DNA of 64,000 bases. Source: Synechococcus sp. UW105 (GTDB lineage: Bacteria; Cyanobacteriota; Cyanobacteriia; PCC-6307; Cyanobiaceae). Shown here in pieces: positions 45,964 through 64,000 of this stretch. The DNA lies in NCBI RefSeq assembly GCF_900473935.1, contig NZ_UCNN01000007.1:62001-126000 (forward strand), written 5' to 3'. Position 1 is the first letter of the stretch. Every line of letters begins with the position of its first letter. The position numbers and the translations under genes are program-made. The notes below the pieces were generated by a model that did no database searches, had not been told where the DNA came from, and was given only the letters and a program-made list of their open reading frames with translations.

Positions 45964-46030
45964 GCCAAACCATCGCCAATCGTTCCTATCAAGTGCGAGA
46001 CTGTTGGTTGACAGAAAGACATAAACACAC

Positions 46031-48196: not shown

Positions 48197-48217
48197 TCCA
48201 CTGAGATCTCTTTGATC

Positions 48218-48256
48218 CCGGGCCTCCAACTCTTGGTTGTGAGGTCCGGCATTTTT
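48218..48256 (+). terminator. Probable terminator after pnp
   Basis: A hairpin with arms CCGG-GCCTC and GAGG-TCCGG plus an inner CAAC/GTTG stem is followed by CATTTTTGATG. It starts 22 bp after the pnp stop codon and lies between pnp and the convergent cysQ-like gene. Confidence 0.65.
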
Positions 48257-48286
48257 GATGGGCTGATGGCGCGATCACAACGCTCA

Positions 48287-49204: not shown

Positions 49205-49227
49205 GGACAAGTCTGGGCTGAGTCATT

Positions 49228-50109: not shown

Positions 50110-50128
50110 ATGCAGACCTAGTGGTTCC

Positions 50129-50356
50129 ATGCTGCAGCGCCTGCGCCTGTTTCTGCTCAGCTGCGGCGGGGCCGGCTTATTGCTGCTGGTGCTTTGCCTC
50201 GGAGCTCAGAACCTGAACGAGCGCCGCGCGATTGCGCTAGGAATCGGTCGCACAGCACCCTTGCCCACAGGATTCATTGTGGGCGTCAGCGCCGTACTGG
50301 GTGTACTAAGTGGCGGGAGTCTGGCTGCAATCCTGCTTCCTGAGCAGCAACAGTGA
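50129..50356 (+). CDS. Small two-helix membrane protein, unknown function
   Basis: The 75-residue protein from ATG 50129 (MLQRLRLFLLSCGGAGLLLL) has two hydrophobic helices, about residues 7-27 and 47-68, separated by a loop with ERRAIALGIGRTAPLPTG. The end of the second helix, GVLSGGSLAAILLP, is Gly-rich. The layout resembles LapA-like small membrane proteins. It follows rsmI closely and may be in the same transcript. No function can be assigned. Confidence 0.68.
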   Translation: MLQRLRLFLLSCGGAGLLLLVLCLGAQNLNERRAIALGIGRTAPLPTGFIVGVSAVLGVLSGGSLAAILLPEQQQ

Positions 50357-50401
50357 TCGCATCTGATCGGCTTGCGAAGGCGATGCCAAGCAGGGGCAGG
50401 T

Positions 50402-51196
50402 TCAGCTGTCGAGAGCGATCAAGGATCCTTCCATCACGAGACGGGTGATTCCACGAGCCAACAGATAACGGCTGGTGCGCGTGAACACACTGGTGTCCGG
50501 CACACGGATCACGCGTTGATTGCGTCCGCACTGACGCTTAGCCATGCGTGGGCTGGAGTAAAGGCAGAGGGCCTGACGATCCTGCTCAGCCGAGCCGAGA
50601 GTCCCCAATTCAGGGAAGTCAGCGAGGGGGCGAGGATCCAGCTCCACCACTTTGTCCACGAGCATATAAACACTGTCAGGCAGAACCCCTGGGCCGATCG
50701 GCTGACAAGCAACGGGTTCGTGGCTGTCATGGTGCGTCACACCAGTGAGGATGGCCACTTCATGAAACTGATTGGCGGGATCATCCTCCTCGCCAAGGCT
50801 GTCCTCCTCGTCATCCACGCTGAAATCATCAGCATCATCGAGCGCGAGGGATTGAACTGCGTCCTCAGCAGCATCAGTCTGATCAGGTCGAGAACCCTCT
50901 TCAGGCTCACTAACACTGGACACCGCAGGGGACTCAGCGGACGCATCCTTCTCCGTAGCCGCCACCACGACTTGGGTGGATGGCTCAGCAGCCGCTGCAG
51001 GGGCAGCCACCATCCCTTTGGCTCGGGCCGTCTTGAGGGCGTCGTATTGCTCTGGAGGCAGCAAATTACGAACCGTGCGACTGACGGTGTTGACGCTGCA
51101 AGCGAAAGCCGTAGCCAATGCAGAACTGGCTTCTCCGGCGCAATAACGCTCGACAAGCTCTTGCTTCTGGCTGTCGTTAAGCCGGCTCGGGGCCAT
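50402..51196 (-). CDS. Helix-turn-helix protein with acidic middle region
   Basis: From ATG 51196 the protein has 264 residues. Residues 5-50 (LNDSQKQELVERYCAGEASS then LATAFACSVNTVSRTVRNLL) form a homeodomain-like helix-turn-helix typical of resolvase/transposase-related or sigma-like DNA binders. A disordered Ala/Ser/Asp/Glu region spans about 80-165. The C-terminal 100 residues (ELDPRPLADFPELGTLGSAE, RMAKRQCGRNQRVIRVPDTS) look like a conserved domain. It is divergent from the tRNA-Arg gene and marks the core side of the island border. The target is unknown. Confidence 0.78.
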   Translation of the reverse strand: MAPSRLNDSQKQELVERYCAGEASSALATAFACSVNTVSRTVRNLLPPEQYDALKTARAKGMVAAPAAAAEPSTQVVVAATEKDASAESPAVSSVSEPEEGSRPDQTDAAEDAVQSLALDDADDFSVDDEEDSLGEEDDPANQFHEVAILTGVTHHDSHEPVACQPIGPGVLPDSVYMLVDKVVELDPRPLADFPELGTLGSAEQDRQALCLYSSPRMAKRQCGRNQRVIRVPDTSVFTRTSRYLLARGITRLVMEGSLIALDS

Positions 51197-51264
51197 TCCA
51201 TGGTCTACGCAGAGACCAATCCTAGGCGGCGCCACCCCTCTCCCTACTGTCAATATGGCGCCAT

Positions 51265-51338
51265 GCTCCCTTAGCTCAGCTGGATAGAGCAACTGCCTTC
51301 TAAGCAGTCGGTCGATGGTTCGAATCCATCAGGGGGCG
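51265..51338 (+). tRNA. tRNA-Arg (anticodon TCT)
   Basis: The 74-nt sequence folds into a complete cloverleaf. The acceptor is GCTCCCT with AGGGGGC (one G-U pair), the D stem GCTC/GAGC, and the anticodon stem ACTGC/GCAGT around loop CTTCTAA (anticodon TCT). The T arm is GATGG-TTCGAAT-CCATC, with discriminator G and no encoded CCA. Its 3' end directly precedes a phage-type integrase gene, so it is the likely attachment site of the island that follows. Confidence 0.95.
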
Positions 51339-51411
51339 TCTTAAAAAACCAGTTAGGCAAAGCGCTACGGAGATTCAGCCCGTGACGCTTGAATCGACTT
51401 GAAACACCATT

Positions 51412-52755
51412 TTGTTTGCATTTTGCAAACGCATATGCAAACGTGGGTTCATCGATTTAAGGCAGCCGGTCAGGCCCAACCCAGTAGTAGCAACGACTCC
51501 CAGAAAAAAGAAGACTCCGGCATGGGTTGCCTCCATACGCCAGGGCCTCAAGGGCCAGAACGGCAACGGATGGCGGGTACATGAGGTGCGCGGCAGGGTG
51601 TTCCTGACCGTCCACTTCGAAGACGGCCAGCGCGCCACCCTCCAGCTGGAACTGCCATGGTCCGGCGAGAGCCCGGCCGAACTGCTGAAGGTGTGCGCCG
51701 AGCTGAAGCGCCGGATGAGCGAACAGCACCTGGGCCTGAAGGAGGCCTATGCCCTGGCCGGCGAAGCAAGCAACACCGCCAGCGGGAACGGCACCGATTG
51801 GGCCGTGGCGATCGAGCGGTTCAAAGTCCACAAGATCGGAAGCGGTGACCTGGGCACCGACACCGCCGAGCGGACCTGGCACCGGAACTACCGGAACCCG
51901 ATGGAGCATGCCCTGAATGCACTGACCACCAGTCCCAGGCCGTCATCGGCGCGGATGGCGTTTGAGCGACTGCGGGACGATTGCACCCTGTCCCCCGGCA
52001 GCGCCGGCCGCCGGCTGCGGATGCAGTATTCCGCCGCGATGCTGCGGTACGCGGTCGAGAGCCTGGGCGCCGATCCGCGGTGGACGCCCCCAACGGATCT
52101 GAAGCCGTTCGTCGGGGTGAAGCAGAAGGGCAAGCAGCAGACGACCTTCATCCAGGACGACCAGATCGTCCGCCTGCTGACCGGCATCACCGATCCGAAG
52201 TGGCGCACCGCTGTGGCGATCGTGGCCTGCTTCGGCCTGCGGCCTGTCGAGCTCCACACCATCCGGGCCGACGGCGACACCCTCTATGTCGGCTGGCAGA
52301 AGCGGACGGCGCGGAAGCCCGAGGGCACCAAGCCCAGGAATGTGGTGGGTCTGGATCCCATCGACCTGGAGGGCGCCAGCGAGAACCTGCTGGCTGTGCT
52401 GGCCGAGCGCGGCATGGATGCCCTGCCGGCGGCCTGCCACCACGAGCGGTGCGGTGAACGGCTGGAGAAAACACTGACTCGGAACAAGGTGTGGCAGCAG
52501 CTGGTGGCCGAGGTGGCCGCCACCCCCGCAGTGGGCAGCACCGGGAATGAGCTGGTGCCGTATTCACTGCGCCACGCCTACGCCGACCGGGCCGACCGGA
52601 TCGGCATGACTGATAAGGAGGCGGCGTTGCAGATGGGCCACAGCGTTCAGACCCACAACTCTCACTACACGGGCACCGGTGCCGACACCGCAGCCAGAGC
52701 ACTGGCCAAGGCCAAGGCAGCAGCCAGAAACCGCACTTTGTTGGAGGTGCAGTGA
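51412..52755 (+). CDS. Tyrosine recombinase / site-specific integrase
   Basis: The protein is up to 447 residues long. The C-terminal catalytic domain shows the tyrosine recombinase residues: Arg I in CFGLRPVELHTI, Arg II in PYSLRHAYADR (Tyr replaces the usual His before it), His/Trp box LQMGHSVQTHN, and the nucleophilic Tyr in SHYTGTG. The start is uncertain: TTG at 51412 is the first possible codon and no ATG precedes the conserved part. It is transcribed away from the tRNA-Arg 73 bp upstream, as in tRNA-integrated islands. Its codons are GC-rich like the core genome. Confidence 0.9.
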   Translation: MFAFCKRICKRGFIDLRQPVRPNPVVATTPRKKKTPAWVASIRQGLKGQNGNGWRVHEVRGRVFLTVHFEDGQRATLQLELPWSGESPAELLKVCAELKRRMSEQHLGLKEAYALAGEASNTASGNGTDWAVAIERFKVHKIGSGDLGTDTAERTWHRNYRNPMEHALNALTTSPRPSSARMAFERLRDDCTLSPGSAGRRLRMQYSAAMLRYAVESLGADPRWTPPTDLKPFVGVKQKGKQQTTFIQDDQIVRLLTGITDPKWRTAVAIVACFGLRPVELHTIRADGDTLYVGWQKRTARKPEGTKPRNVVGLDPIDLEGASENLLAVLAERGMDALPAACHHERCGERLEKTLTRNKVWQQLVAEVAATPAVGSTGNELVPYSLRHAYADRADRIGMTDKEAALQMGHSVQTHNSHYTGTGADTAARALAKAKAAARNRTLLEVQ

Positions 52756-52995: not shown

Positions 52996-53229
52996 ATGTC
53001 AGCCGAGCTGAAGAAACGCCCGCGGCCGCCGATCAACTACAAACGGCAAGTTCATCCGATCTTGGATGTTCCGCTTTGGGCTTTTGAAGACTGGGCCTGG
53101 AATGCAATGGACCTGGGAATTGAAGTGACCCCTATTGCCGGTAAAGACGGCATGAGCAGGGCTCGCAGGACAATCGCAGCAATCCAAAAGCAGATCATCG
53201 AGCAATACGGATGGCCTGAGCGGGGATAA
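52996..53229 (+). CDS. Small hypothetical protein
   Basis: The 77-residue protein starts at ATG 52996 (MSAELKKRPRPPINYKRQVH). It has aromatic-rich LWAFEDWAWNAMDLG and a basic C-terminal half (SRARRTIAAIQKQIIEQYGW), suggesting a compact helical DNA- or protein-binding fold. It lies 240 bp behind the integrase and 15 bp before an HTH gene remnant, an arrangement typical for island control genes (excisionase-like). No family recognised. Confidence 0.6.
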   Translation: MSAELKKRPRPPINYKRQVHPILDVPLWAFEDWAWNAMDLGIEVTPIAGKDGMSRARRTIAAIQKQIIEQYGWPERG

Positions 53230-53240
53230 CGACCCGCTGT

Positions 53241-54407
53241 TCAAATGCCAATGCCAGATGGAGTCCTGAAGACTCCAGATGCGGTGCGGGCGCTTGGTCG
53301 ATCGAAGTCGCAACTGTTGCGATTGATCGATTCCGGGCACCTGACACCTGGGGTCCATTTCTTCCGCGGACCCTTCCGAAACAGTCCGATTACTTGGGCC
53401 GCCTCGGCCTTAGCCCTGGCAAGAAGTTCCGCGAATTTTTCTGCCTCTCTTTCGGCCGCCTCTTGTGCAGCCTCTGCCTCCTGGCGAGCCCTTGCTTCTT
53501 CTCGCTCCTGCCTCCTTAATTCAGTCTGCTCTTCACGTTCAGCTTGCTTAGCCAAAGCATTTTCATGAACCAGATAAGCCTCGTCAACCTTCAGGTCAAG
53601 CAGGGAAGACGACCAAGGCATAGAGACCCGATCTTTCGCCTGTTTTGCATAAAACTGAAACGCACGATCAATCTTTCCAAGAACTGTCGAATCATTGGAA
53701 TGCTTGAGGGTTGAGATCGCAGCGTCACATTCACCGTTAAAGCCTCTGAGCAATGCTTTCAATGTCTGCCGCACGAAAGCCCTACCTTTCGCAGCCGAGC
53801 CTTCAAGCGTCACCTGACTATTTTTACACTTAGCAAGAAGATTTTTGCCGACCTTTTTCTGCTGCTCTCTATTCTGCTTAAGCTTGTCGGAAAGACGCCT
53901 AGAATCAAGCCCGATATAACGCCTAGCAGCAAAACCAGAATCACTCAGGTCATACTCATCCTCAATATCTCTCTTGATCCGCGAAAGATCGCCATTAATC
54001 CTTAGCAAATCTTTCTCCTTAGCAAGAACATCTTTATCCAAACGTCGAAGTCTCTGCTCAGCAGATTCCAACTTGGAAGCTTTAGACGCAATCTGGCCAG
54101 TAACAGCACGAAGGTCCGCCTCGGCACCGGCCTGCCTTAGCTGTATTTCCTTCTCTGCGGCCTTGACCTTCTCAGCAGCCTCTTTGCGCCTCTTAGCAAC
54201 AAAAGCCTCAACATCTGAAATCGGCTTGTACTTGCCTCGCGTCTTCGAGTCGGCTGCAAAGGAAATCAGAGCAGACGTTGCCCCTAACCCTCCAGATGCA
54301 CCAAGTAATCCACGTTGGTCAGCATCAGGTGCAGCGACTGCTGCAACAGCGCAACCCAGAGAAGCCAGAAAAGTTGTAACTGCTAAGGGGCGGAGCATCG
54401 TGAGCAT
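53241..54407 (-). CDS. DUF4041-type coiled-coil protein, lacking its C-terminal nuclease domain
   Basis: The 388-residue protein starts MLTMLRPLAVTTFLASLGC, a hydrophobic N terminus. A long Lys/Glu/Arg coiled coil follows (from KYKPISDVEAFVAKRRKEAA), then a DUF4041 core with YDLSDSGFAARRYIGLDSRR, LLRGFNGECDAAISTLKHSN and EREEQTELRRQEREEARARQ. Family members usually end in a GIY-YIG (T5orf172/MUG113) nuclease domain. Here it is replaced, after AEAAQ near 53,395, by about 50 residues that are antisense to the HTH gene fragment. The gene is thus 3'-truncated. DUF4041 proteins are common in phages and mobile elements. Confidence 0.7.
   Translation of the reverse strand: MLTMLRPLAVTTFLASLGCAVAAVAAPDADQRGLLGASGGLGATSALISFAADSKTRGKYKPISDVEAFVAKRRKEAAEKVKAAEKEIQLRQAGAEADLRAVTGQIASKASKLESAEQRLRRLDKDVLAKEKDLLRINGDLSRIKRDIEDEYDLSDSGFAARRYIGLDSRRLSDKLKQNREQQKKVGKNLLAKCKNSQVTLEGSAAKGRAFVRQTLKALLRGFNGECDAAISTLKHSNDSTVLGKIDRAFQFYAKQAKDRVSMPWSSSLLDLKVDEAYLVHENALAKQAEREEQTELRRQEREEARARQEAEAAQEAAEREAEKFAELLARAKAEAAQVIGLFRKGPRKKWTPGVRCPESINRNSCDFDRPSARTASGVFRTPSGIGI
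53245..53397 (+). pseudogene. 5' fragment of an HTH (excisionase-like) gene
   Basis: The first about 51 codons from ATG 53245 look like a MerR/excisionase-type DNA-binding protein: LKTPDAVRALGRSKSQLLRL, then HLTPGVHFFRGP and NSPITW. After NSPITW the frame runs on to 53568 but only as an Ala/Ser-rich antisense of the opposite gene's coiled coil. So the real gene appears cut off near 53,397 and fused to the end of the convergent DUF4041 gene. It may still make a short peptide. Confidence 0.5.
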
Positions 54408-54699
54408 TACTACTTCTTAGAGGGTGACCTTGGAGACCATCAAGAGGCATCCCCCAATCGAGGGATATTCACACCAGCTCGGTGCCAAGAACACTCAAAG
54501 ACATCGAACCATCGGCCCGAACACAAAGACATTCCCAGTACATCTACACCATCAATGGAGAGTCGGGGAGGAATGAGCCTTTGTGGACGACCTGGAGCTG
54601 CAGGGCTCTCAGCATTCTCTCAGCCAAATATCCCCCATTTGGGGGATGTGGAACTGCATTGTTTTGCAGACAGTGATCAGGTAGTCGCCAACATCACTT
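54408..54699 (+). other. Intergenic region with two copies of an 18-bp near-palindrome
   Basis: No convincing gene is present. The notable content is ATCCCCCATTTGGGGGAT at 54630..54647 and a weaker relative, ATCCCCCAATCGAGGGAT, at 54448..54465 (15 of 18 bases shared). The first copy is the reverse complement of an element at 61535. The spacer precedes the divergent genes at 54407 and 54700, so an operator role is possible. Confidence 0.5.
54630..54647 (+). repeat. 18-bp near-palindrome ATCCCCC-ATTT-GGGGGAT
   Basis: It has seven-base arms around a 4-base centre. It is identical as reverse complement to 61535..61552, seven kilobases away in the same island. It sits 53 bp upstream of the gene starting at 54700. 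Confidence 0.75.
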
Positions 54700-55155
54700 A
54701 TGACTGACAGCCCGTGTATTGATGTCGAGAACCTTCAGGGTGGTGCTCGTATCCGATCTACCGGTGACTTCCCAGTTGAGCCAGGGGGGCTTGAGAGGAA
54801 AGCTCTCAACGATCAATTCCGACTCATGAGGATGTCCCATGAATCACTGCAGCGATCTAGAGGCCAACTCAAGCGTCGTACCAGGGAGTTGAAGGATGCC
54901 CAGGACGTCTTCCTGGTAAGGATGCGGGACTATGAAGACAGGCTCAGGGTGCTCGCTGAGGAGAAGGTTGAAGCGATGGAGATGGCAAAAGAACTGCATG
55001 AGGAAATCATGTCTCATGAGCGCCGTCAAAAAGCACTTAACGACCTACTTCGGGAAATGGATGACGGCGAAGATGGAAGCGTCGGTTTTCTGAGCATTTA
55101 TCGACTTCGAAGTCTATTTGGCAAATTTAAGGTGCTTATGCGTGGAGGTCTCTGA
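54700..55155 (+). CDS. Coiled-coil hypothetical protein
   Basis: The 151-residue protein starts at ATG 54700 (MTDSPCIDVENLQGG). Residues 35-115 form a long charged helix (FRLMRMSHESLQRSRGQLKR, VEAMEMAKELHEEIMSHERR) with a clear heptad character. The C-terminal 30 residues (VGFLSIYRLRSLFGKFKVL) are amphipathic and could touch membrane. It overlaps the next gene by one base (TGATG), so the pair is translated together. No family recognised. Confidence 0.7.
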   Translation: MTDSPCIDVENLQGGARIRSTGDFPVEPGGLERKALNDQFRLMRMSHESLQRSRGQLKRRTRELKDAQDVFLVRMRDYEDRLRVLAEEKVEAMEMAKELHEEIMSHERRQKALNDLLREMDDGEDGSVGFLSIYRLRSLFGKFKVLMRGGL

Positions 55156-55616
55156 TGACGGATCTCAGTCAGAAGTTTGGGAGCCTTATGGCACGGATGG
55201 CGAAGACCGACGCTGAGTTGTTCCGAACCATCAGTGACCACAACAAGGCTGTGACCGACCAGGTCATGGACCTAACAACGCACGAGGAGAATGGATCTGG
55301 TTCCTTAGCGCTAGTCTCACCTCCTCTACTTCCGTTGGGAGAGAGAAGCGAGACAGCGCTCAAGAAGCGATTCGGTAACTGCAAAGCTGCCTTTGCCTGG
55401 TTGGAGGAAAAGTTGGGACCTCCAACTTCAAAGCGATTATCCTGGGCAACCGTAGTTTCTACGGTCACTTCAGGGCAATGGCCGAGCACAACAATCACCA
55501 CAAAGTCTGCAGGGATTTCGAATAGGCATCTTGCAGATTCTCTGGATCAGATCAACAAGCGACTTGATGGAATTGAAGGAGTACTAGCACTGATCCTCTC
55601 GGCTCTTGAGAAGTGA
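55155..55616 (+). CDS. Hypothetical protein, coupled to 54700 gene
   Basis: The 153-residue protein starts in the stop codon of the upstream gene. Its N-terminal 45 residues (SQKFGSLMARMAKTDAELFR) and C-terminal 30 residues (LADSLDQINKRLDGIEGVLA) are helical and amphipathic. The middle is Ser/Thr/Pro-rich. The C-terminal helix looks like a phage-type coiled coil. Probable partner of the upstream coiled-coil protein; function unknown. Confidence 0.65.
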   Translation: MTDLSQKFGSLMARMAKTDAELFRTISDHNKAVTDQVMDLTTHEENGSGSLALVSPPLLPLGERSETALKKRFGNCKAAFAWLEEKLGPPTSKRLSWATVVSTVTSGQWPSTTITTKSAGISNRHLADSLDQINKRLDGIEGVLALILSALEK

Positions 55617-55748
55617 TGGCAACCCCACAAAAGGACCAAGCGAGCCTTAGACACAGGCGGCACAGAGGCTATGTCATCCCAGCTCTGCTACTGAGCTCAC
55701 ATCTGTACATGCCGCCTGCAGCCAAGGCTGTTTCGCCATCCTGTGCTG

Positions 55749-56006
55749 ATGCCAGGCAAGGATCGCCCTCTTGTTGATCGCCACGCCCCGAAAGACGGGG
55801 AAGGGTGGCTACTAAGCACAGAGCAACAGAAGGTCTGCCGGTTCAGGAATGACATGCCTACAGCCCATGCGAAGTGGGTGGTGGTGGAGACCAGACCGCT
55901 ACGGGGTGGAGGTGAGCCAGTCATCAGACGGATGCTCAGGCACAACGCCATCGAAGCCTGGGAGACCATGCAGAAAGCAGGTTGGCAGCGTTGTCAGCCA
56001 AGGTGA
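55749..56006 (+). CDS. DUF1651 family protein
   Basis: The 85-residue protein from ATG 55749 matches the picocyanobacterial DUF1651 pattern: EGWLLSTEQQKVCRFRND at the start, a central WVVVETRPLR, a basic MLRHNAIEAWETMQKAGWQR and a final CQPR. Members are short, multi-copy, often island-borne and of unknown function. A GTG two codons upstream is an alternative start. It stands alone on the plus strand. Confidence 0.75.
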   Translation: MPGKDRPLVDRHAPKDGEGWLLSTEQQKVCRFRNDMPTAHAKWVVVETRPLRGGGEPVIRRMLRHNAIEAWETMQKAGWQRCQPR

Positions 56007-56155
56007 TGACTAGGTTTTGCGCCCATCACCAGGCTTTCACCAGAAGCTGCCTATACAACCACCACAACCATGCACTGGGGTTCACCAATAGAGCTGTGAT
56101 CTTGAAGGAGTCGAGGGGGCAACACCCCCGGCGCAGTTATTCACTCCATAACACC

Positions 56156-56335
56156 ATGGACCGCTTTCAAAACCTTGCCGCCCTCGAAGCCATTGTCGAA
56201 GCCATGCACACGCAGAGCCCTGACTCCATGGGAATGGAACATCTGCGGAGAGCTGCCTACCTGCACACGATCATCGAAGCCATGCTCAGTGACCAAGTGG
56301 CCTGCCTTCCAGACACCGGAAGAGTCTGCTCCTGA
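56156..56335 (+). CDS. Small hypothetical protein
   Basis: A 59-residue gene from ATG 56156 (MDRFQNLAALEAIVEAMHTQ) encodes a mainly helical peptide (MEHLRRAAYLHTIIEAMLSD) with two Cys near the C terminus. It is preceded by a C-rich spacer and the open frame extends upstream without start support. The composition is protein-like, but there is no recognised family. Confidence 0.5.
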   Translation: MDRFQNLAALEAIVEAMHTQSPDSMGMEHLRRAAYLHTIIEAMLSDQVACLPDTGRVCS

Positions 56336-56356
56336 GTAGCGAGACCACCATCAACT

Positions 56357-56605
56357 ATGGCGAATGCAATCGGCCAATGGGAGCAGGAGCAAGCGCGGAA
56401 GAAGGGGATTGAGAGTGCGGATGCTGCTGGGTTAAAAGATCGGCAAATCTCCGCATTTATGAGCAACAACTGCGTCACCTTCGCCAAGAACTACGGCAGC
56501 AACGCACGGGAGACAGAAGTACTCGCAGCCGGTACGAATAGCAATAAGGAAGCAGCTAATGACGTGAGAATTTTCACCAAGTGTCCAGACAGTGGTAGGC
56601 ATTGA
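56357..56605 (+). CDS. Small hypothetical protein (weak)
   Basis: The 82-residue frame from ATG 56357 begins MANAIGQWEQEQARKKGIES, helical and charged, then becomes Asn/Ala-rich (NCVTFAKNYGSNARETEVLA). It follows the 59-residue gene by 21 bp. A GC-rich hairpin about 95 bp downstream could be its terminator. Real coding is possible but not certain. Confidence 0.4.
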   Translation: MANAIGQWEQEQARKKGIESADAAGLKDRQISAFMSNNCVTFAKNYGSNARETEVLAAGTNSNKEAANDVRIFTKCPDSGRH

Positions 56606-56699
56606 GCCTCAGACCATCTTGCTTGACAGCTCGTTTCTTTGCAATTCCAAAGCACCAACTCATGAGAAAACCAGTGACGCCAGAGCTTCAGGGCAAAAA

Positions 56700-56718
56700 G
56701 CCCCGCGCTTGGCGGGGC
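56700..56718 (+). terminator. GCCCCGC hairpin, copy 1
   Basis: A 7-bp perfect stem GCCCCGC/GCGGGGC with loop GCTTG, preceded by AAAAA. It is downstream of the 56357 frame and faces the Nif11-peptide gene end. About 55 further bases are similar to the sequence after the hairpin at 61996. Confidence 0.55.
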
Positions 56719-56844
56719 GTTATTGGTGTGAGGTGTTTTGTCGGGAGATTGATAGCGCCAGCGAGAGCGAGAGCGAGTCGCATGATTATCGCCTAAGAGC
56801 AAAGCTTAAAGACTAATGCGAGGTTCAAACAATATGGCTTATTG

Positions 56845-57144
56845 CTACTTTTTGCATTCCGGCGCACATGTATTGGTGGCTTGACCACAACCCGTTTTGT
56901 AGCACGTTGCACTACGAGTTGGCCTCCCCCCTGACATGCTCTCCAAATCCAAATCGCTTAGAGCTTTAATATCGGAAGAGAGGGCGCCAATTGATTCAGC
57001 CAGCTCGTCAAGAGTTAATTGCAGATTATTTTCACTGGCGATTTCAACAAGCTCTTCTAGACTAGAGGCCTTACTTATGCGATCTGACACAGAAGCATCG
57101 GCCTTGATTAACTCGAGGAACTTCCCAAGATCTTCCTTTGACAT
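56845..57144 (-). CDS. Nif11-leader RiPP precursor (prochlorosin-like)
   Basis: The 99-residue peptide starts at ATG 57144 (MSKEDLGKFLELIKADASVS). Residues 1-70 form a Nif11-type leader that ends in LESMSGG, a double-glycine cleavage site at 72/73. The 26-residue core begins RPTRSATCYKTGCGQATNTC and ends APECKK: four Cys, five Thr and one Ser, well suited to lanthionine bridges as in prochlorosins. No LanM-type synthetase or peptidase-transporter is in the window, so it would rely on enzymes elsewhere. The longer frame up to 57186 is not needed. Confidence 0.88.
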   Translation of the reverse strand: MSKEDLGKFLELIKADASVSDRISKASSLEELVEIASENNLQLTLDELAESIGALSSDIKALSDLDLESMSGGRPTRSATCYKTGCGQATNTCAPECKK

Positions 57145-57620
57145 GATTGGAATGATTTTTCTAAATTTTAACCAATGAAGTCTCACCTGTCCATCGCATA
57201 CACATAACGCAAAATGCGCAGGCTAGGCCGCACGGGGGATCATCTACAAATTCAGGACTTTATGGTCTTAGCATTAAGCCTATAACGCCCATTAACGCGA
57301 TAGCAATAAACACTCGCATAGGGAATTGCGCAAAATAGGAATCATTTTAACCTGCCTTACCTAAAAAGACTGATCCTATAAGTAATTAGCTCCAGAAACG
57401 AAGGCAATGATCAACAGATGCCGACGCAAGTCAGTTTTGTCGCTGTGCAAGATTGGTGACCTTTCGCGATTGTGCCACAGCAATGTGCCTTAGGAGGAAG
57501 TCTTCTCAGCCGCACCGATACACCAGAAATTATCAGCAACCACGAGCTGGGCCACGAATCTGCGCAGGTCGATCGAGGATCGCCATTGGGTGGGTTTAGC
57601 ACCCAACCCGGGACGGGAAA
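57145..57620 (-). other. A/T-richer gap upstream of the Nif11-peptide gene
   Basis: No gene could be supported over these 476 bp. The half next to 57144 must hold the promoter of the precursor gene. Toward 57,500 several short overlapping frames stay open, including a 44-codon minus frame ending at 57490 that contains LRRFVAQLVVADNFWCIGAA. It starts with TTG inside the stop of the next gene and may be a gene remnant. Confidence 0.4.
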
Positions 57621-58076
57621 TCAATTACAATCAGGGGAGTAAAACCCAGGTATCTTGTAATTATTTTGGACGTAAAAGCGTATTGCTTCTGACAATGCCT
57701 GCTCTTTGGTTAAGCCCTCATTGATCTGATGGCAGTAATACTCGCTAAACCACTGATCGCTGCGTGGACTGCCCATCTCTTCCCTCGGCCTGCTGCCAGG
57801 GCCACTTTCTCCATCCTGGAGGCTCTCGGCGAAGAAACTGATAAGCATAGGCACAATTCCGACAATACTTACCAACAGTGGCGGCAAGAGGTCAATCAGA
57901 ATAAATCTCGCCATCCATTTTGCCCTTCTTCTGGGAGATTGTGAAAGAACCGTGGACCAGAGAGGGTTATAAGTGGGGCGCGGAGGAGGGATAAATGCAA
58001 TTCCATTCAACAACTCTTCTGCGTGTAAATCACTATCCTTTTCTCCCCAACTTCCAGAATCGACATCTACCCTCAT
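57621..58076 (-). CDS. Hypothetical protein with one membrane helix
   Basis: The 151-residue protein starts MRVDVDSGSWGEKDSDLHAE. A hydrophobic helix lies at about residues 58-84 (FILIDLLPPLLVSIVGIVPM), after a basic stretch (SPRRRAKWMAR), which predicts an N-in topology. The C-terminal part (SEYYCHQINEGLTKEQALSE) is soluble and helical. The 58101 gene is 24 bp upstream on the same strand. Unknown function. Confidence 0.55.
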   Translation of the reverse strand: MRVDVDSGSWGEKDSDLHAEELLNGIAFIPPPRPTYNPLWSTVLSQSPRRRAKWMARFILIDLLPPLLVSIVGIVPMLISFFAESLQDGESGPGSRPREEMGSPRSDQWFSEYYCHQINEGLTKEQALSEAIRFYVQNNYKIPGFYSPDCN

Positions 58077-58100
58077 GGCCCCATCCCCCTCTCTTGGAGG

Positions 58101-58364
58101 CTAGATTTTTGCCGCATTCATTGAAGAAAGGGTAGATACTTGCTTTCCTTTAAAGTCTTGGCGACTAGATATCTCCTGCTGCGAAAGAACGTCCTTGCGA
58201 GCAGAGGCTATGCCCTCCAGGAGCCTCTCACCTTCACGAATCAGTTCTTCCTTGAGCCCAAGCTCATACCTGAATTTATGCTTTAATTCTGACTTGTAGT
58301 AATCAACTAGTTTTGACGACTCTGCCCTTATAAGCCGATAATGAGTGTCTTCCCATTCACTCAA
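58101..58364 (-). CDS. Helical hypothetical protein, start uncertain
   Basis: The 87-residue frame from TTG 58364 (LSEWEDTHYRLIRAESSKLV) is strongly helical and charged (YYKSELKHKFRYELGLKEEL). The frame stays open upstream to 58430 with protein-like sequence (FSASLEVEGRSYFWQKACDV) but no ATG or GTG. The gene may therefore use a rare start or be 5'-truncated. It precedes the single-helix membrane protein gene on the same strand. Confidence 0.5.
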   Translation of the reverse strand: MSEWEDTHYRLIRAESSKLVDYYKSELKHKFRYELGLKEELIREGERLLEGIASARKDVLSQQEISSRQDFKGKQVSTLSSMNAAKI

Positions 58365-58743
58365 TACGTCGCATGCTTTCTGCCAAAAATACGAACGACC
58401 TTCAACCTCTAGGCTGGCCGAAAAAATTGATCACCTACTAGCCCGGCGGCAACTACGCTTAGGTAAAAGCTCTTTTCACTGTTCACGTTTATGCTTCTAT
58501 TGACTATCGAGTAATTTTACAGTCCTAAAAGCTCAAAGAGGCCCCGCCACCTTGGGTGATACTGCGCCACCGCCACTGACGAAGAGATTCTACCGGCTTG
58601 CATTGATGCTCCCTAAACTGCATGGAAAGATGCAGAGCCAGAAGCAGCATAGGCACCGCGTGACTATCCACGAAAACGCGTGCTGAAGTGGCATTCATCA
58701 GATCGTCCTCTGCATCGAACGCACCAAAACCGATGCCTCATCA
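58365..58743 (-). other. Gap without identified gene
   Basis: The first about 65 bases continue the open frame of the 58101 gene. The rest shows no frame with convincing composition and no clear repeat or RNA. It separates the small island genes from the hydrolase gene. Confidence 0.4.
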
Positions 58744-59859
58744 TCAACGCAGTTCGGTGATCGATTGTTGTTGCGTCAAAGGCATCACCTTGATCTCGCC
58801 TCCTGAGAGTGGTAGATCGGCGAAACGCATTTGGCGTAGATCGGGATTCTCAAATGTTTTGATCGAGTAGGTGCCGTTCTTCTGATCAGCGACCACGGTC
58901 CATTCGGTGATCTCATAGCTGGGTTTGGAGCTCCCACCACCAAACGCTCCACCAGGAGGAAGGACGATGCTTCCAAGCGGCAAATCAAACTGGCCAAGCA
59001 GATGAAATGCCGTGCCCACTTGCTGGGCTGAGCTCAAATCGGTCGGCGCATTGTGACTGAAGATCAGTGCTCGAATGAAACGCGATGTCGACAAAAAATC
59101 ACCAGGCAAGCCCTGCAAGCCAACACCTGAACTTGCAGGCGGCAACGTCAGGCCATTGATGCGCATCACAGCAGGAGGATTGGCACTGAGGTTGGCGTAG
59201 TTACCAGCAGCAGCCAGGTGATACGGCAAGGGAGGGTTGTTGGTGTAAACCCCCGTTGGGTTATCGAGCATATTGAGTTCACCGTTGATGTATTCCACCG
59301 ACAGGCTCTGGCCTGAGCTGTCGTGCAGAGTCATGTGAATCGGCACCGGGCCGCCGAAGGCTTTGAGAACCGATCCGTTCACCAGGATGCTGGGAAGCGC
59401 CTGCTTCACCTCGGCGATCGACTCGAAGTTGCTCAACACATACGTGAGTAACTGCCAACTAGCGATGGATCGATCCTGTTGGCCATCAGGAACTTCTTGA
59501 AACTGGGCATAACCGGCGAAATACAGCAGTCCGCCAGCCAGACCGCGTTCGTTCATGCCATCAACGACGATGTCATCAACGCCAACAGCATTCAGGCCGA
59601 CCACGGCATAGCGACTGGTCCAAGCCAAACCGGTGCCTGTCTCCCCCGATGGCCCCGCTCCTACTAACGATGTGCCGCGTTGAATCAGCAACGCCTCACT
59701 GTTGAGCGGTTGCCCCCACTCCATGGTGCGGCCATACACCCTGCCGCCGTCATTACCTTGCAGGATGAAACTGGTGCAGGCACTGGCAGGGCTGATGGCA
59801 CACACCAACAGACCCATGCCGAGTAGACATGCGAGGTGACGTGTTTTGCGAGCGAGCAT
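58744..59859 (-). CDS. Secreted choloylglycine hydrolase / penicillin V acylase-like (Ntn) hydrolase
   Basis: The 371-residue protein starts MLARKTRHLACLLGMGLLVC and has a signal peptide ending ASA, directly before CTSFILQG. The Cys exposed by cleavage is the Ntn nucleophile. Other family features are GRVYGRTMEWG, ERGLAGGLLYF, VYTNNPPLPYHLA (conserved Asn) and SRFIRALIFS with the late Arg. These enzymes cleave amide bonds of bile salts, penicillin V or N-acyl-homoserine lactones; the natural substrate is unknown here. It acts outside the cytoplasm. Confidence 0.88.
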   Translation of the reverse strand: MLARKTRHLACLLGMGLLVCAISPASACTSFILQGNDGGRVYGRTMEWGQPLNSEALLIQRGTSLVGAGPSGETGTGLAWTSRYAVVGLNAVGVDDIVVDGMNERGLAGGLLYFAGYAQFQEVPDGQQDRSIASWQLLTYVLSNFESIAEVKQALPSILVNGSVLKAFGGPVPIHMTLHDSSGQSLSVEYINGELNMLDNPTGVYTNNPPLPYHLAAAGNYANLSANPPAVMRINGLTLPPASSGVGLQGLPGDFLSTSRFIRALIFSHNAPTDLSSAQQVGTAFHLLGQFDLPLGSIVLPPGGAFGGGSSKPSYEITEWTVVADQKNGTYSIKTFENPDLRQMRFADLPLSGGEIKVMPLTQQQSITELR

Positions 59860-60224
59860 GGCGCAATAGCTGAACCTCGGTTTCAAGTCTTTGCAAGACC
59901 GATCGATGGGCTCATCAGTTCACGGAATGTTTTCAACCGACACTGCCCAGGCACACAACAACGGCACATCGCTCGCATGCCGCCAAGAACGGACGGAGCT
60001 CCATCGAACCCGCTGCATCCGTTCGAAATCACCAACAAGTCCGCTTCGGGACCAGAGCGAGCAGCGGCAGCTGATCTGCGTGTTCCACGCTGTGTGCACG
60101 CAATGCCCCGCTCATGGCGGGGCTGGTGAATCTGCTCCCAAGAGATGGATCACGACACTGAACGCCCACAACAACGCGGAAGCAGGCGCAGCAGATGATG
60201 CGCTGAAAGCAGGTGATTCATGAA
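59860..60224 (+). other. Gap containing a GCCCCGC hairpin
   Basis: No gene is supported. The gap contains the upstream region of the Ntn hydrolase gene and the hairpin at 60106. Several overlapping open frames on the plus strand have no protein-like composition. Confidence 0.45.
60106..60124 (+). terminator. GCCCCGC hairpin, copy 2
   Basis: A 7-bp perfect stem GCCCCGC/GCGGGGC with loop TCATG. It could terminate the acyltransferase transcript, 101 bp past the end of that gene on the minus strand. No T-run follows in either direction. Confidence 0.45.
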
Positions 60225-61367
60225 CTAGATGATCCGAGCAACAGGTTGAATCCGCCTGAGCTGATGACTGATTCCGAACGAGATCGTGATTCCAAGAGCT
60301 GACGCAGCTAGTGCAATCAGCCAATGATTGAGTCCGATAAAACCAATGGCTTCTAGCACCACAACAAGCACCAGTGGATGGATGATGTAGGCCCCGAAGC
60401 TGTCGACTCCAGCGGTAGCCAACCACTGCCCGCAGCGATTTTCATTGCGCTGGAACCACAGCAACAGATAAGCGATCACTCCCCAACCGATGAAGGGGAA
60501 CAGGAAAGCCTCAAAAAGTGAGAGCTTGCCAAAATCGGATGACAGAGTGCCGTTGAAGGTCAGCACTAGCAAGATTGCAAGAACGCCAAGAGCCAATGCG
60601 CAGGAGAAGCGGAACCAGCGCACAACCAAATGGGTGTTAAGTCGTTCCAGCCAGCGATGAAATGATGCCTTGCACCCCAGAAAAAACAAAAAGGCATAGG
60701 TGAAAATATGCATGCCTTGGAAACCAAGGCCATCGAACTGTGAACGTCTCAAAGCAGCCCAGAGGTCGGACCGTGTCGCCATCAGGACCTCAAGGATCGC
60801 GAGGACGACGGCACTGATGAGCCAAGAGCGCAGCTGGGGTGTGGGAACAGAGGTGTCGACAAAGAATCGATCTCCTCGCAGCGCAACCCAGGCGCAATAG
60901 AGCAAATCGAACACGAACAGAACGACCAGAAACCACAGCACCCCTACACGGTTAAAAGGCATGTCATTCCACGGCAATTCAGCTAAAGGACTGGCCGGGG
61001 AGAGCCTTCCTAAGAGCAGCGAGGCGTTGTTGATCAACAGCACACCAACCAAGAAGGGAATACCAATTCGGAAGAGGCGATCTTTCAGGTAATGCGCGAT
61101 ACCTTTTTTATGTAACGAACGCGGAACGAAGTAGCCCGAGAGCAGAAACAACATATACATGAAGAATGTTTGGCAGAAAAATATGCACCAACCGACTGCA
61201 ACTTCAAATAACGGATCAGCAGATCCTCCGCTGGGAATGTGCACTCCGCTCCAGCTGAACGAACCTGCCAGTAAAACATGGACGAAAATGACTAGCGCGA
61301 TCATTAACGCCTTGATCTGATCAAAATAGAGCAGACGCTGGTTGGCGCTGGTTTGCTGGGAAGTCAT
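60225..61367 (-). CDS. Acyltransferase family 3 (OatA-like) membrane protein
   Basis: The 380-residue protein starts MTSQQTSANQRLLYFDQIKA. It has about ten transmembrane helices and the family's active His in ALMIALVIFVHVLLAG, FMLFLLSGYFVPRSL and a late FGAYIIHPLVLVVVLEAIGF. Members O-acylate sugars of peptidoglycan, O-antigen, exopolysaccharide or other small compounds. The frame is open to 61466 but the ATG at 61367 directly precedes the conserved start. No partner gene is obvious. Confidence 0.88.
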   Translation of the reverse strand: MTSQQTSANQRLLYFDQIKALMIALVIFVHVLLAGSFSWSGVHIPSGGSADPLFEVAVGWCIFFCQTFFMYMLFLLSGYFVPRSLHKKGIAHYLKDRLFRIGIPFLVGVLLINNASLLLGRLSPASPLAELPWNDMPFNRVGVLWFLVVLFVFDLLYCAWVALRGDRFFVDTSVPTPQLRSWLISAVVLAILEVLMATRSDLWAALRRSQFDGLGFQGMHIFTYAFLFFLGCKASFHRWLERLNTHLVVRWFRFSCALALGVLAILLVLTFNGTLSSDFGKLSLFEAFLFPFIGWGVIAYLLLWFQRNENRCGQWLATAGVDSFGAYIIHPLVLVVVLEAIGFIGLNHWLIALAASALGITISFGISHQLRRIQPVARII

Positions 61368-61534
61368 AGAACCAGCATCACCAAGGGCCCGAAAGCCTTG
61401 CAACCCAAAATTTGTGATTCTCCTCATTCTCTTTTGGAGAGATGCGTTAGATGCGTGTGGATTCATGGCTTAGCCGTGAGTTGTGAGCCTCTCGCTCCGT
61501 CAACACACCATCTCCCAGCCACCCCTGCTTACAC

Positions 61535-61552
61535 ATCCCCCAAATGGGGGAT
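61535..61552 (+). repeat. 18-bp near-palindrome ATCCCCC-AAAT-GGGGGAT
   Basis: It is identical as reverse complement to 54630..54647. It lies 179 bp upstream of the peptide start and 168 bp upstream of the acyltransferase start. It could be an operator or an extra-stable hairpin. Confidence 0.75.
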
Positions 61553-61657
61553 CTTTTCAGACTGGACGCATTGCCTGCGCAAGGGGTGAAAGCCCTGTGA
61601 GCAAGATCACAGCCACAGTTGAGCTCGATCAATGAGGTGGTTGTTGATCACGGCGAT

Positions 61658-61703
61658 GTTGTGTGAGTCGGAGGGACACACCTCCGCGTCTAACTCACAC
61701 AAC
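61658..61703 (+). promoter_or_regulatory. Nested 5'-UTR stem-loop before the ICGG peptide gene
   Basis: An 11-bp outer stem (GTTGTGTGAGT with ACTCACACAAC) encloses a 6-bp inner stem (CGGAGG with CCTCCG) around loop GACACA. The structure ends 10 bases before ATG 61714. GGAGGG, the best Shine-Dalgarno-like sequence, is buried inside the stem, which hints at translational control. Confidence 0.7.
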
Positions 61704-61713
61704 ACACAAAATC

Positions 61714-61977
61714 ATGGCTCAATCCACTGCACTCATCAACGAGATCACAGATCAAGAACTCGACCTAGTCACACTTACCGCGATTTGCGGTGGCGGCAAA
61801 AAAGCCGAAAAAAAGATCGGAAAATGGATCGAAAAAACCTTTGGCAACGGCGACGGAGTGCACACCTTTGGCGACTATGCCGATGAAGCCGTCAAAATCT
61901 TTAAGTTCATTGCAAAGAACACTGGCGTTCACCAAGAGCCTGGCACTGAAGATCCTGGCCCAGGTGTTTTGCACTAA
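61714..61977 (+). CDS. Double-glycine leader peptide, cationic bacteriocin-like
   Basis: The 87-residue peptide starts at ATG 61714. The leader MAQSTALINEITDQELDLVT continues to LTAICGG, with ELxxV-like spacing before the double Gly as in secreted class II microcins and CCRG-type cyanobacterial peptides. The predicted mature part begins GKKAEKKIGKWIEKTFGNGD, cationic and amphipathic, then FGDYADEAVKIFKFIAKNTG and an acidic Pro/Gly tail. No Cys is left in the mature peptide. A hairpin follows after the stop. No dedicated transporter is seen nearby. Confidence 0.82.
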   Translation: MAQSTALINEITDQELDLVTLTAICGGGKKAEKKIGKWIEKTFGNGDGVHTFGDYADEAVKIFKFIAKNTGVHQEPGTEDPGPGVLH

Positions 61978-62466
61978 AGCAATCGTGCCAGGCAAAGCCC
62001 CGCCACGAGCGGGGCTCATTGGCGTGATTTGTTGCGTTGAGCGATCGATAGAGAGACCTGAACCATCTCCGCCGACTTTGTGAGGGTCTGGTAAAGCCCT
62101 GATCAGAAACTGGAACAGTTCGGGGAATAAGCAGGTGAGAGCATCAGCAGATGGATGCTGGAGCCATCAACAACAAACTTGGCCACAGTTTCGCTATGTC
62201 TATTGGTGTTAATGCACGTGAAGACGACTGTGCCACAAACCACCCTTGCACTGACGGAATCACACTCAGTAGAGACAAGACAGCGAGGGAACCATGAGGC
62301 AGCACATGAACAGCAGCCACCAGAGACGCTTCCCATGCCCTTCTCAACATTGTGACCAAGCTCAAAATCAACGCTGAGTCAAGTCATCGAGTCGTCAACT
62401 GATTGAGGGCATCGTGAGCATGTTGGGGGGAAAACCCTTCAGCACTCATTTCAACATTTCAAACCA
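61978..62466 (+). other. Long gap between two peptide genes
   Basis: It includes the GCCCCGC hairpin at 61996 and about 400 bp without a confident gene. On the minus strand a Cys-rich frame (62103..62336, MGSVSGGCCSCAASWFPRC) and an overlapping hydrophobic frame (62144..62371) stay open. Neither has a convincing start signal. A degraded mobile element is also possible. Confidence 0.4.
61996..62016 (+). terminator. GCCCCGC hairpin, copy 3
   Basis: An 8-bp perfect stem AGCCCCGC/GCGGGGCT with loop CACGA, 18 bp after the peptide stop codon, placed as its terminator. The following bases (ATTGGCGTGATTTGTTGCGT and on to GATCGATAG) resemble those after copy 1. Confidence 0.6.
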
Positions 62467-62478
62467 ATGATCAACAAC
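62433..62478 (+). repeat. Peptide-gene 5' region, copy 1
   Basis: The 46 bases just upstream of and including the start of the ACGG peptide gene recur at 62835..62880 with about 80 percent identity, including ATTTCAACA and GAAACCAATGA or CAAACCAATGA around the ATG. Confidence 0.7.
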
Positions 62479-62697
62479 GAACTGAGCCTTCATCAACTCT
62501 CCACTGCCTGTGGAGGCAAAAAAACAAATCTTGCAGGCTTCATCAGCGAGCCTGATGTTGGAGCAAGCCGCTTTCCCAGCAAGGGAATCAAACGTGCAGC
62601 AACAGCCAAGAAAACAGCACTATTGAAGGATTCTCGCCCAAGCAACTGCTCTTCCAGACTAATTGCAACCAACGTATTCCCGATGAGTGAATGGTAA
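62467..62697 (+). CDS. Double-glycine leader peptide (ACGG type)
   Basis: The 76-residue peptide starts at ATG 62467. Its very short leader MINNELSLHQLSTACGG has the ELSxxQL...GG pattern of picocyanobacterial double-glycine peptides and ends in CGG like the neighbouring peptide at 61714. The predicted mature part begins KKTNLAGFISEPDVGASRFP and is basic, Lys/Ala/Ser-rich, with one Cys and a Trp at the end. A perfect 12-bp stem-loop follows the stop codon. No relatives recognised beyond the leader pattern. Confidence 0.72.
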   Translation: MINNELSLHQLSTACGGKKTNLAGFISEPDVGASRFPSKGIKRAATAKKTALLKDSRPSNCSSRLIATNVFPMSEW

Positions 62698-62704
62698 AAG
62701 GCTT

Positions 62705-62741
62705 GAGCATGAAACCTCGCAATAGGCTGGGTTTCATGCTC
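62705..62741 (+). terminator. 12-bp perfect stem-loop after the ACGG peptide gene
   Basis: GAGCATGAAACC (62705..62716) pairs perfectly with GGTTTCATGCTC (62730..62741) around a 13-base loop. It starts 7 bp after the stop codon. There is only TTCC after the stem, so it may be a terminator or an mRNA 3' stabiliser. Confidence 0.65.
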
Positions 62742-62834
62742 TTCCTAGCACTACGAGAAAACGTAAAACAACGCGGAGCCAGGACCTTCGAATCACCAGC
62801 CAATGAGAGGGATTGCATGCACAACGAAGGAGCA

Positions 62835-62880
62835 AGCCCTTCAATACTTATTTCAACACTTGAAACCAATGACAAACAAC
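62835..62880 (+). repeat. Peptide-gene 5' region, copy 2 with collapsed frame
   Basis: This is the second copy of the sequence before the ACGG peptide. The ATG is kept, but the frame reads M-T-N-N-N-M-N-P-I and stops. It looks like the remnant of a duplicated precursor gene. Confidence 0.6.
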
Positions 62881-62894
62881 AATATGAATCCTAT

Positions 62895-63320
62895 TTAGCC
62901 TCTTCGATGATGCGTCATCGGCACACAACTCCCCTGTGACTCCGCAATCGTCAACCAGGGCACACGGCCCACTTGATGGCTCTGAACAAGACTGCTCGTA
63001 AATGAAAAGCGCTCAGTGTCGAGAGTGATCAAAAGACTGGTCCCAGAGGGATTCAGATCTCCCCTCATCAGAGTGAACAGATGGGGAAGCACCTGTAAAA
63101 CAACCATCCCTTCACCATCATGTGACCCTGCCAGTGATCGGGTGTCGATTGTGATTTGGCGTTTGGTTGCCTCGAATCTTGGCCTGGGACTCTCAACCAA
63201 GGCCCCATGCCTAAAAGACGCCGTGAAGGCAACACGATCCGAGCACTGCAACTCGAGAACAGCTGCATTGAGAGGAGTGGCACCACCAACCAGAAAAAGC
63301 GCAGCGAACCATCTGAACAT
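62895..63320 (-). CDS. Secreted hypothetical protein
   Basis: From ATG 63320 the protein has 141 residues. MFRWFAALFLVGGATPLNAA is a good signal peptide. The mature part (VLELQCSDRVAFTASFRHGA, then GMVVLQVLPHLFTLMRGDLN) alternates hydrophobic and polar residues, as in a beta-rich periplasmic domain. It has two Cys, one near each end (LQCSDR and GSCVPM), that could pair. No family recognised. The open frame reaches 63371 without better start. Confidence 0.65.
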   Translation of the reverse strand: MFRWFAALFLVGGATPLNAAVLELQCSDRVAFTASFRHGALVESPRPRFEATKRQITIDTRSLAGSHDGEGMVVLQVLPHLFTLMRGDLNPSGTSLLITLDTERFSFTSSLVQSHQVGRVPWLTIAESQGSCVPMTHHRRG

Positions 63321-63614
63321 TCGTCTTCTCACGTTTGAGTTGCATGCGATCGACTGCAATAGCCACATCACCCTTCAAGCCAAGAACAACGATCCACCAG
63401 GCAATGAGGACTTCTGGCTGAGGAGTGAGAAGTGAAGTTACACCTATTTCTCACGTCCAGTCCATCGATGAGGCGCTGTTCAGTCGCCAAACAAGGCTAA
63501 GAAAGCCAGCAAGCTGAGATGGCAGGTGATGAGGCTGGTAGCAAGCTGGAGACAGCACAGACGCGGCACCTCCCTGTGATCGATGCAATACAACAGCAAG
63601 GCCTGAGAACGTCA
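63321..63614 (+). other. Gap without gene
   Basis: No gene is supported. A short inverted repeat GTGAGAA-N16-TTCTCAC is present at 63425..63454. The promoter for the 63615 gene presumably lies in the last 100 bases. Confidence 0.4.
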
Positions 63615-64000
63615 TGAGCATTGATCTCCCCCTGATCGCATTCGGACTTGGCTTAGGGGCCATCTGCGGATTTTTCAATGCGGTCGCCTCCGGTGGATCT
63701 GCAGTGATGCTTCCCGCATTACTCGCGATGGGCCTGCCGGCTGATGTCGCCAATGCGACCGCACGCCTACCAATTCTTCTCGGCAGCACGACAGCATTGT
63801 GGTCATTTGAGCGAGCCAAGCTGATCCCCTGGCAATCAGTCTTGCAACTGTCGATCGTTTTTCTTCCCTTTAGTCTACTGGGCGCAGAAATCGCAACAAC
63901 GATGAATACGTCGATCAGCCTTCTGCTGATTCGTATTTCCGTCTTAGGCGCCCTAGCCTTTCTACTAATACGTCCGCAACAGCTACTGAAAGGAAGACCA
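63615..64000 (+). CDS. TauE/SafE family anion permease, N-terminal part
   Basis: The frame starts at ATG 63615 (MSIDLPLIAFGLGLGAICGF) and is open to the last base, so the gene continues beyond the window. The first 128 residues have the TauE/SafE opening: GAICGFFNAVASGGSAVMLP in the first helix pair, then LPADVANATARLPILLGSTT, and further membrane helices. The family exports or imports sulfite, sulfonates or related organic anions. Whether it still belongs to the island is unclear. Confidence 0.85.

Follow-up and report, generated by a model that had tools for sequence, protein, structure and literature searches.

Can a RiPP precursor gene that lies on a different contig from the only LanM gene of its genome still encode a working lanthipeptide substrate, and how did it come to be where it is? 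This question is raised by a Nif11-leader RiPP precursor gene in the 64,000-nucleotide stretch of Synechococcus DNA analysed here (the window). With a probability of roughly three in four, we consider its product to be a divergent prochlorosin (ProcA/SyncA) substrate, borne by a genomic island, modified in trans by the single LanM that the genome encodes and exported by a C39 transporter.

The gene occupies positions 56845 to 57144 of the window on the minus strand, stop codon included, and encodes 99 amino acids; in the window sequence the ATG stands at 57144 and the stop codon at 56845-56847. Residues 1-73 (56926..57144, minus strand) form the leader, which matches TIGR03798 and terminates in a predicted Gly-Gly cleavage site, the translation reading ...LESMSGG. 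The remaining 26 residues, RPTRSATCYKTGCGQATNTCAPECKK (56848..56925, minus strand), form the core, as judged from sequence and composition. The Pfam Nif11 model matches the protein with an E value of 2.4e-9 and 37.8 bits (cut-off 23.8), and NCBIfam TIGR03798 (leader_Nif11) with 36.0 bits (cut-off 32.3) over profile positions 1-68 of 68; since both scores exceed the curated cut-offs, a chance open reading frame is excluded. The first-pass annotation, made from the letters alone, had proposed a Nif11 leader, to be checked against Nif11 profiles, an SGG cleavage site and a 26-residue core with four Cys, five Thr and one Ser: the leader does fit the profiles, and all the counts are correct. It had also expected the core to allow several ring patterns, which is formally right, as enumeration gives 54 four-ring pairings in which a Ser or Thr precedes its Cys. 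A single one of these is non-crossing (Ser5-Cys8, Thr11-Cys13, Thr17-Cys20 and Thr3-Cys24), and because ProcM products are not known to be bound by a non-crossing rule, no pattern is favoured. The calculated monoisotopic mass of the unmodified core is 2774.27 Da, which four dehydrations would lower to 2702.23 Da and six to 2666.21 Da.

The leader, which was aligned with 14 other leaders, measures 73 residues, compared with 62-71 in the 16 other precursors of the GG type in the genome, and its linker is 7 residues longer than the commonest form. Its TIGR03798 score is the lowest of these 17 (36 bits, the next being 46). The N-terminus reads MSKEDL as against the published ProcA motif MS/TEEQL, and the stretch before the cleavage site reads LDLESMSGG as against D/EELExxxGG; the Gly-Gly itself is kept. 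As far as sequence can tell, the leader is clearly divergent.

Relatives of the precursor are distant. A search of 5.8 billion proteins returned the precursor's own cluster as sole match (1 protein of 7 candidates), and no other sequence in the 31 genomes of the genus passed an E value of 1e-8. At 1e-3, 30 of 400 genomes of the family contained a match; the best of them shares 42% identity over residues 1-91, with a core that differs by eye, and the highest identity among the matches listed is 47%, over residues 1-73. Within its own genome the nearest relative is the precursor L017, at 35%. As the protein, genus and family searches gave no close relative, the precursor is a singleton by present data. 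Pattern-based searches, which reach close relatives only, similarly yielded no close relative among IMG/VR contigs and no named relative among GTDB genomes. A profile built from the three longest-leader precursors of the genome retrieved 51 proteins, all with a Nif11 domain, and the core was absent from all 12 that were read out. Similarity between the core and those of other precursors mostly lay within that of shuffles. The motif RP.R at the core start is common to L017 and L019, the two other longest-leader precursors, and to these two alone of 61 cores; a core subfamily with them is not claimed, because neither ranks among the ten best against shuffles. A phage origin of the region was considered and set aside, 50,697 phage records having given no DNA match.

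Candidate enzymes for such a peptide are found elsewhere in the genome, which comprises 2.66 Mb in 31 contigs and is rated 99.9% complete. It contains one LanM match, on contig C2, and the precursor lies on C11, so that the absence of local modification enzymes noted at first pass is borne out; the LanM or ProcM and the C39-type ABC transporter that were to be looked for genome-wide are both present on C2. The LanM open frame spans 1077 codons (C2:87691-90921) and scores 763 bits against TIGR03897 (cut-off 304), with a dehydratase domain (PF13575, 342 bits) and a LANC domain (PF05147, 110 bits). In the sequence its first ATG is internal; translation from a TTG at C2:87745 would yield a protein of about 1059 residues. 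A WCHG motif lies at 929 and a CCG motif at 978, the latter a mark of ProcM-like enzymes according to an extract of a published account (PMC10783134); judged by these motifs, the LanM is of the ProcM type with a CCG zinc motif. Among solved structures it matches LicM2 and CylM. The closest two of five LanM loci compared from the genus are 57% identical to it over about 850 residues, and a Roseovarius lutimaris LanM (L197) 55.8% over 1045 residues, a similarity that, taken from sequence, would fit transfer between distant bacteria.

Exporter genes adjoin the LanM gene on the opposite strand. One encodes an ABC transporter that includes a peptidase domain of the C39 type (Pfam Peptidase_C39, 99.9 bits) and scores 692.8 bits against the NHLM ABC1 model, below the equivalog cut-off of 853.3; the best NCBIfam matches of the other neighbours are NHLM ABC2, NHLM HlyD and the TolC family, all below the family cut-offs. 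YcaO was ruled out as an alternative modifying enzyme, as the genome contains no match. From a reading of the Nif11 hits, the genome holds 17 precursors of the GG type including that of the window, a count that excludes L013 (full-length, with GS for GG) and weaker hits without a GG tail. Two of the 16 others lie about 1.2 and 1.7 kb upstream of LanM; the distance between LanM and the long-leader precursor L019 is about 1.7 kb.

In the prochlorosins, a LanM enzyme uses the leader, dehydrates Ser and Thr residues and adds Cys thiols to them, and a C39 domain cuts after Gly-Gly. The same course of maturation is given in the part of PMC10783134 drawn on here. Following this scheme, the LanM on C2 would accept the leader of the precursor and dehydrate Ser and Thr residues of its core, to which Cys thiols would add to form Ser/Thr-Cys thioether rings. 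The C39 domain would then remove the leader after Gly-Gly, and the product would be exported through the transporter adjacent to LanM.

The position of the gene points to an island. A tRNA-Arg gene with anticodon TCT (51264..51340, plus strand) appears to be the integration target, the island having its left border at the 3' end of this gene. Identity with the sister genome G029 is 98.3% over 1571 bp up to that end, the homology spanning 76 of the 77 tRNA positions, one base short of the 3' end drawn by ARAGORN, and past the tRNA the two genomes share just short scattered pieces; the comparison thus places a junction at the tRNA 3' end. An integrase gene (51412..52755, plus strand; PHROG_1 integrase, 48.9 bits) begins 71 bp further on. 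Pfam gave no integrase match for it, and its motifs LRPVEL, LRH, MGH and HY, read by eye, are presumably those of a tyrosine recombinase; relatives of 24-31% identity occur in seven other tRNA-Arg regions. The GC content amounts to 0.604 for positions 46000-51340, to 0.656 for the integrase, to 0.517 for positions 53000-64000 and to 0.467 for the precursor gene, and the step does not fall at the tRNA because GC stays high over the integrase. From the island start to the contig end 13.3 kb on, no second copy of the tRNA was found. A decayed copy downstream in the window was also sought and not retained, blastn giving none and no exact match of at least 14 bases being present. A site-specific integrative element, with a far end that would lie beyond the end of the contig, would have brought the precursor gene in as cargo. 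That the gene was delivered by an island, as proposed at first pass, is supported by the tRNA-Arg junction, the adjacent integrase and the precursors of relatives at the same site.

The surroundings of the gene are linked to the same pool of island DNA, since a terminator-bearing repeat and a DUF1651 gene recur at tRNA-Arg elsewhere. Copies with 84-95% identity to the repeat (56693..56757, minus strand) occur in five related genomes (G008, G013, G025, G028 and G029), in each case in the tRNA-Arg region; G025 has three copies, two of which sit 8 nt after the tRNA-Arg or after its partial copy. Of 27 other genomes, 11 also carry the DUF1651 gene (55743..56006, plus strand) in their tRNA-Arg region. 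The repeat contains a predicted intrinsic terminator behind the precursor (56700..56718, minus strand), formed by 7 G-C pairs followed by TTTTT, with the hairpin about 126 nt past the stop codon; three terminator-like sites were found in the searched stretch, as against 1.4 +/- 1.3 expected. An RNA structure behind the precursor was rejected, and the terminator hairpin alone is listed there, because the folding energy equals that of shuffles. A sigma-70-like promoter match, TGGACA-17-TAAAAT (57165..57193, minus strand), stands 20 nt upstream of the ATG and is weak evidence, as two promoter-like sites in the searched stretch against 1.6 +/- 1.4 expected are no better than chance.

Further elements share the stretch. 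One is a dispersed repeat (55999-56129), at most about 130 bp long, of which eight other genomes hold copies at 72-87% identity in their tRNA-Arg regions, G005 alone having eight. Two genes for double-glycine peptides without a Nif11 match lie at 61663-61977 and 62467-62697, both on the plus strand. The second belongs to the CCRG-2 RiPP family by NCBIfam (24.5 bits, cut-off 24), and a segment made up of the leader part of the first and the DNA upstream of it (61593-61716) is found again, with 76-84% identity, at tRNA-Arg in G005. Between the precursor and these genes, a protein of the choloylglycine-hydrolase family (58747-59886) and an acyltransferase-3 protein (60228-61466) are encoded on the minus strand.

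The same tRNA harbours precursors in other genomes of the genus. A LanM match is present in 12 of the 31, and Nif11 hits occur in all 31, ranging from 8 to at least 135 in the LanM-bearing genomes (the upper figure being that of G008, with at least 135) and from 2 to 11 in the 19 others, among which G002, G010 and G029 carry full-scoring precursors. In an extract of PMC10783134, LanM is given for 9 of 12 precursor-bearing published strains. The DNA downstream of tRNA-Arg(UCU) was compared in 28 genomes (G014, G026 and G030 gave no usable site), over 7 to 20 kb apiece, and G005, G012 and G028 contributed a further stretch of 20 kb. Seven of the 12 LanM-bearing genomes (this one, G000, and G005, G008, G012, G022, G025 and G028) have precursor genes no more than 20 kb away from this tRNA; in the other 5 the site has none. 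None of the 16 LanM-lacking genomes compared, three of which are 70-85% complete (G013, G017 and G020), has an intact precursor there, and a broken (split) gene occurs in G002 alone. Partial copies of the tRNA on the same strand follow it in 11 of the 28 genomes, most of them representing its 3' 41-61 nt, and in five of the seven precursor-bearing genomes (G005, G012, G022, G025 and G028) some or all of the precursors are flanked by the tRNA and a partial copy. At the six precursor-bearing sites other than ours, the stretches compared hold no recognisable relative of the integrases at this tRNA, which, like the lack of precursors there in five LanM-bearing genomes, counts against the island reading. 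In G008, five partial copies lie about 216-241 kb from the tRNA-Arg gene (G008:C1:2703577-2728149, minus strand), and two precursor genes are situated between two of them.

Enrichment at the site was estimated in the six of the 11 other LanM-bearing genomes that are single contigs with a complete hit list, keeping hits with a profile end of at least 66 and at least 45 bits. Precursors occur at tRNA-Arg in four of the six, as against 0.43 expected from random 20-kb windows (P = 3e-4), a value that is indicative only, because the overlap had been noticed beforehand, the genomes are related and the null consists of random windows, not other tRNA genes. Left out of the calculation were G008 (single contig, hit list incomplete) and G028 (draft, 108 hits), which have precursors at the site, and the drafts G006, G015 and G016, which have none, the contig of G016 ending about 14.5 kb after the tRNA.

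Alternatively, the precursor may be a decaying passenger of the island whose leader has drifted too far for good LanM binding. This is an unlikely reading, although it would agree with the lowest TIGR03798 score of the genome and with the broken precursors of these islands, such as the split gene of G002, and several relatives contain in-frame stops; the precursor has an open frame and retains its Gly-Gly, and with four Cys and six Ser/Thr its core ranks among the richest in these residues, 5 of the 45 cores found in other tRNA-Arg regions being equally rich.

The even number of Cys could instead mean that the double-glycine peptide escapes LanM and leaves through the C39 transporter with disulfide bonds; other double-glycine peptides, without a Nif11 match, are encoded further along the stretch at 61663 and 62467. 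That the leader is of the Nif11 type and the genome encodes a ProcM-type LanM, and that the long-leader precursor L019 lies so near that enzyme, makes this distinctly improbable. Nor is the precursor readily taken for a Nif11-domain protein unrelated to RiPPs, of the kind carried by genomes of the genus: Nif11 matches do occur in all 31, including the 19 without a LanM match, but those read in this genome (L018, L020-L022 and L024-L031) lack the Gly-Gly and Cys-rich tail, both of which the precursor has, and no ortholog of it was found among the sequences searched. We regard this last explanation as very improbable, and a LanM substrate modified in trans remains the preferred reading.

The location of the enzyme itself might point to a second mobile component. 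The LanM cassette starts after the 3' end of the 6S RNA gene (RF00013, 98 bits; L032:3602-3785 on G000:C2). Identity with G029 ends at the same point (97.6% over 3785 bp) and resumes 15.3-17.7 kb past the 6S RNA, with 77.7% over 931 bp and then 95.8% over 18.7 kb. Where the cassette lies here, G029 has an insert of about 15.6 kb, bounded on either side by an exact copy of the 3'-terminal 41 nt of 6S RNA (L160:3760-3800 and L160:19335-19375, contig G029:C14). An integrase (PHROG_1, 111 bits) is encoded next to the distal copy; the insert also holds a gene for a phage-type RNA polymerase (482.8 bits) and a match to a head-assembly protein, and from these genes it appears to be a phage-like element. 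As it is flanked by the 41-nt repeats and carries an integrase, the 6S RNA 3' end looks like an attachment site in G029. What speaks against a like role for it here is that, with the LanM cassette of our genome, we found neither a second 6S copy nor a relative of the integrases at tRNA-Arg or in the G029 insert. LanM at 6S RNA as a rule for the genus was rejected, since none of the 11 other LanM-bearing genomes has this arrangement; in G023, precursors lie 1-3 kb from 6S RNA. Among the titles and abstract openings listed by a literature search, none mentions 6S RNA as an integration site.

Prochlorosin biosynthesis in the genus might then be a split mobile system, with precursors on tRNA-Arg(UCU) elements and a LanM-exporter cassette inserted at the 6S RNA 3' end, an idea that we hold tentatively and with more doubt than confidence. 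If true, precursors would be carried by elements inserting one after another at tRNA-Arg(UCU), and strains would gain and lose enzyme and substrates independently. The contrast between an enzyme cassette at the 6S RNA junction here and a different, phage-like insertion in the sister strain, together with the tRNA-Arg comparison, provides a concrete and testable account of how one enzyme could serve many scattered precursors. The precursor, for its part, brings a distinct four-Cys core into the prochlorosin repertoire and would serve to test how much leader drift a promiscuous LanM tolerates.

Tycheposons integrate at tRNA genes and carry an integrase and variable cargo. The island resembles them in its tRNA junction, in the integrase at its end and in its variable cargo; it differs in that no far attachment copy was seen before the contig end, the likeness consisting of tRNA, integrase and cargo. 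The name is used for elements of Prochlorococcus in PMC10654061. Earlier reports place lanthipeptide genes in LLIV genomic islands (2020; PMC7522525) and integrases near syncA genes (2023; PMC10783134), and tRNA-Arg as a precursor site may have been noticed earlier. In Prochlorococcus MIT9313, nif11 paralogs were described in 2009 from a hypervariable tRNA-Met island with repeated partial tRNA copies (PMC2784084). Nif11 genes in a variable island that starts at a tRNA, and repeated partial tRNA copies, are common to both cases, whereas the MIT9313 island has tRNA-Met beside ansA and nif11 genes next to degraded transposases, and ours has tRNA-Arg(UCU) and an adjacent integrase. The ProcA/SyncA and ProcM/SyncM systems, as outlined in an excerpt of PMC10783134, combine a Nif11 leader, a Gly-Gly site and a variable core with a CCG-type LanM near exporter genes. 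The precursor shares with ProcA/SyncA the Nif11 leader, the Gly-Gly site and a core of Cys, Ser and Thr, and its genome shares with the ProcM/SyncM systems the scattered precursors and the one CCG-type LanM near TolC, HlyD, ABC and C39 genes. It departs from ProcA/SyncA in its N-terminal and pre-Gly-Gly motifs (MS/TEEQL and D/EELExxxGG in the same excerpt of PMC10783134), in the 73-residue leader and in a core seen in no relative. The precursor is new and divergent, but of a known family in a known kind of place.
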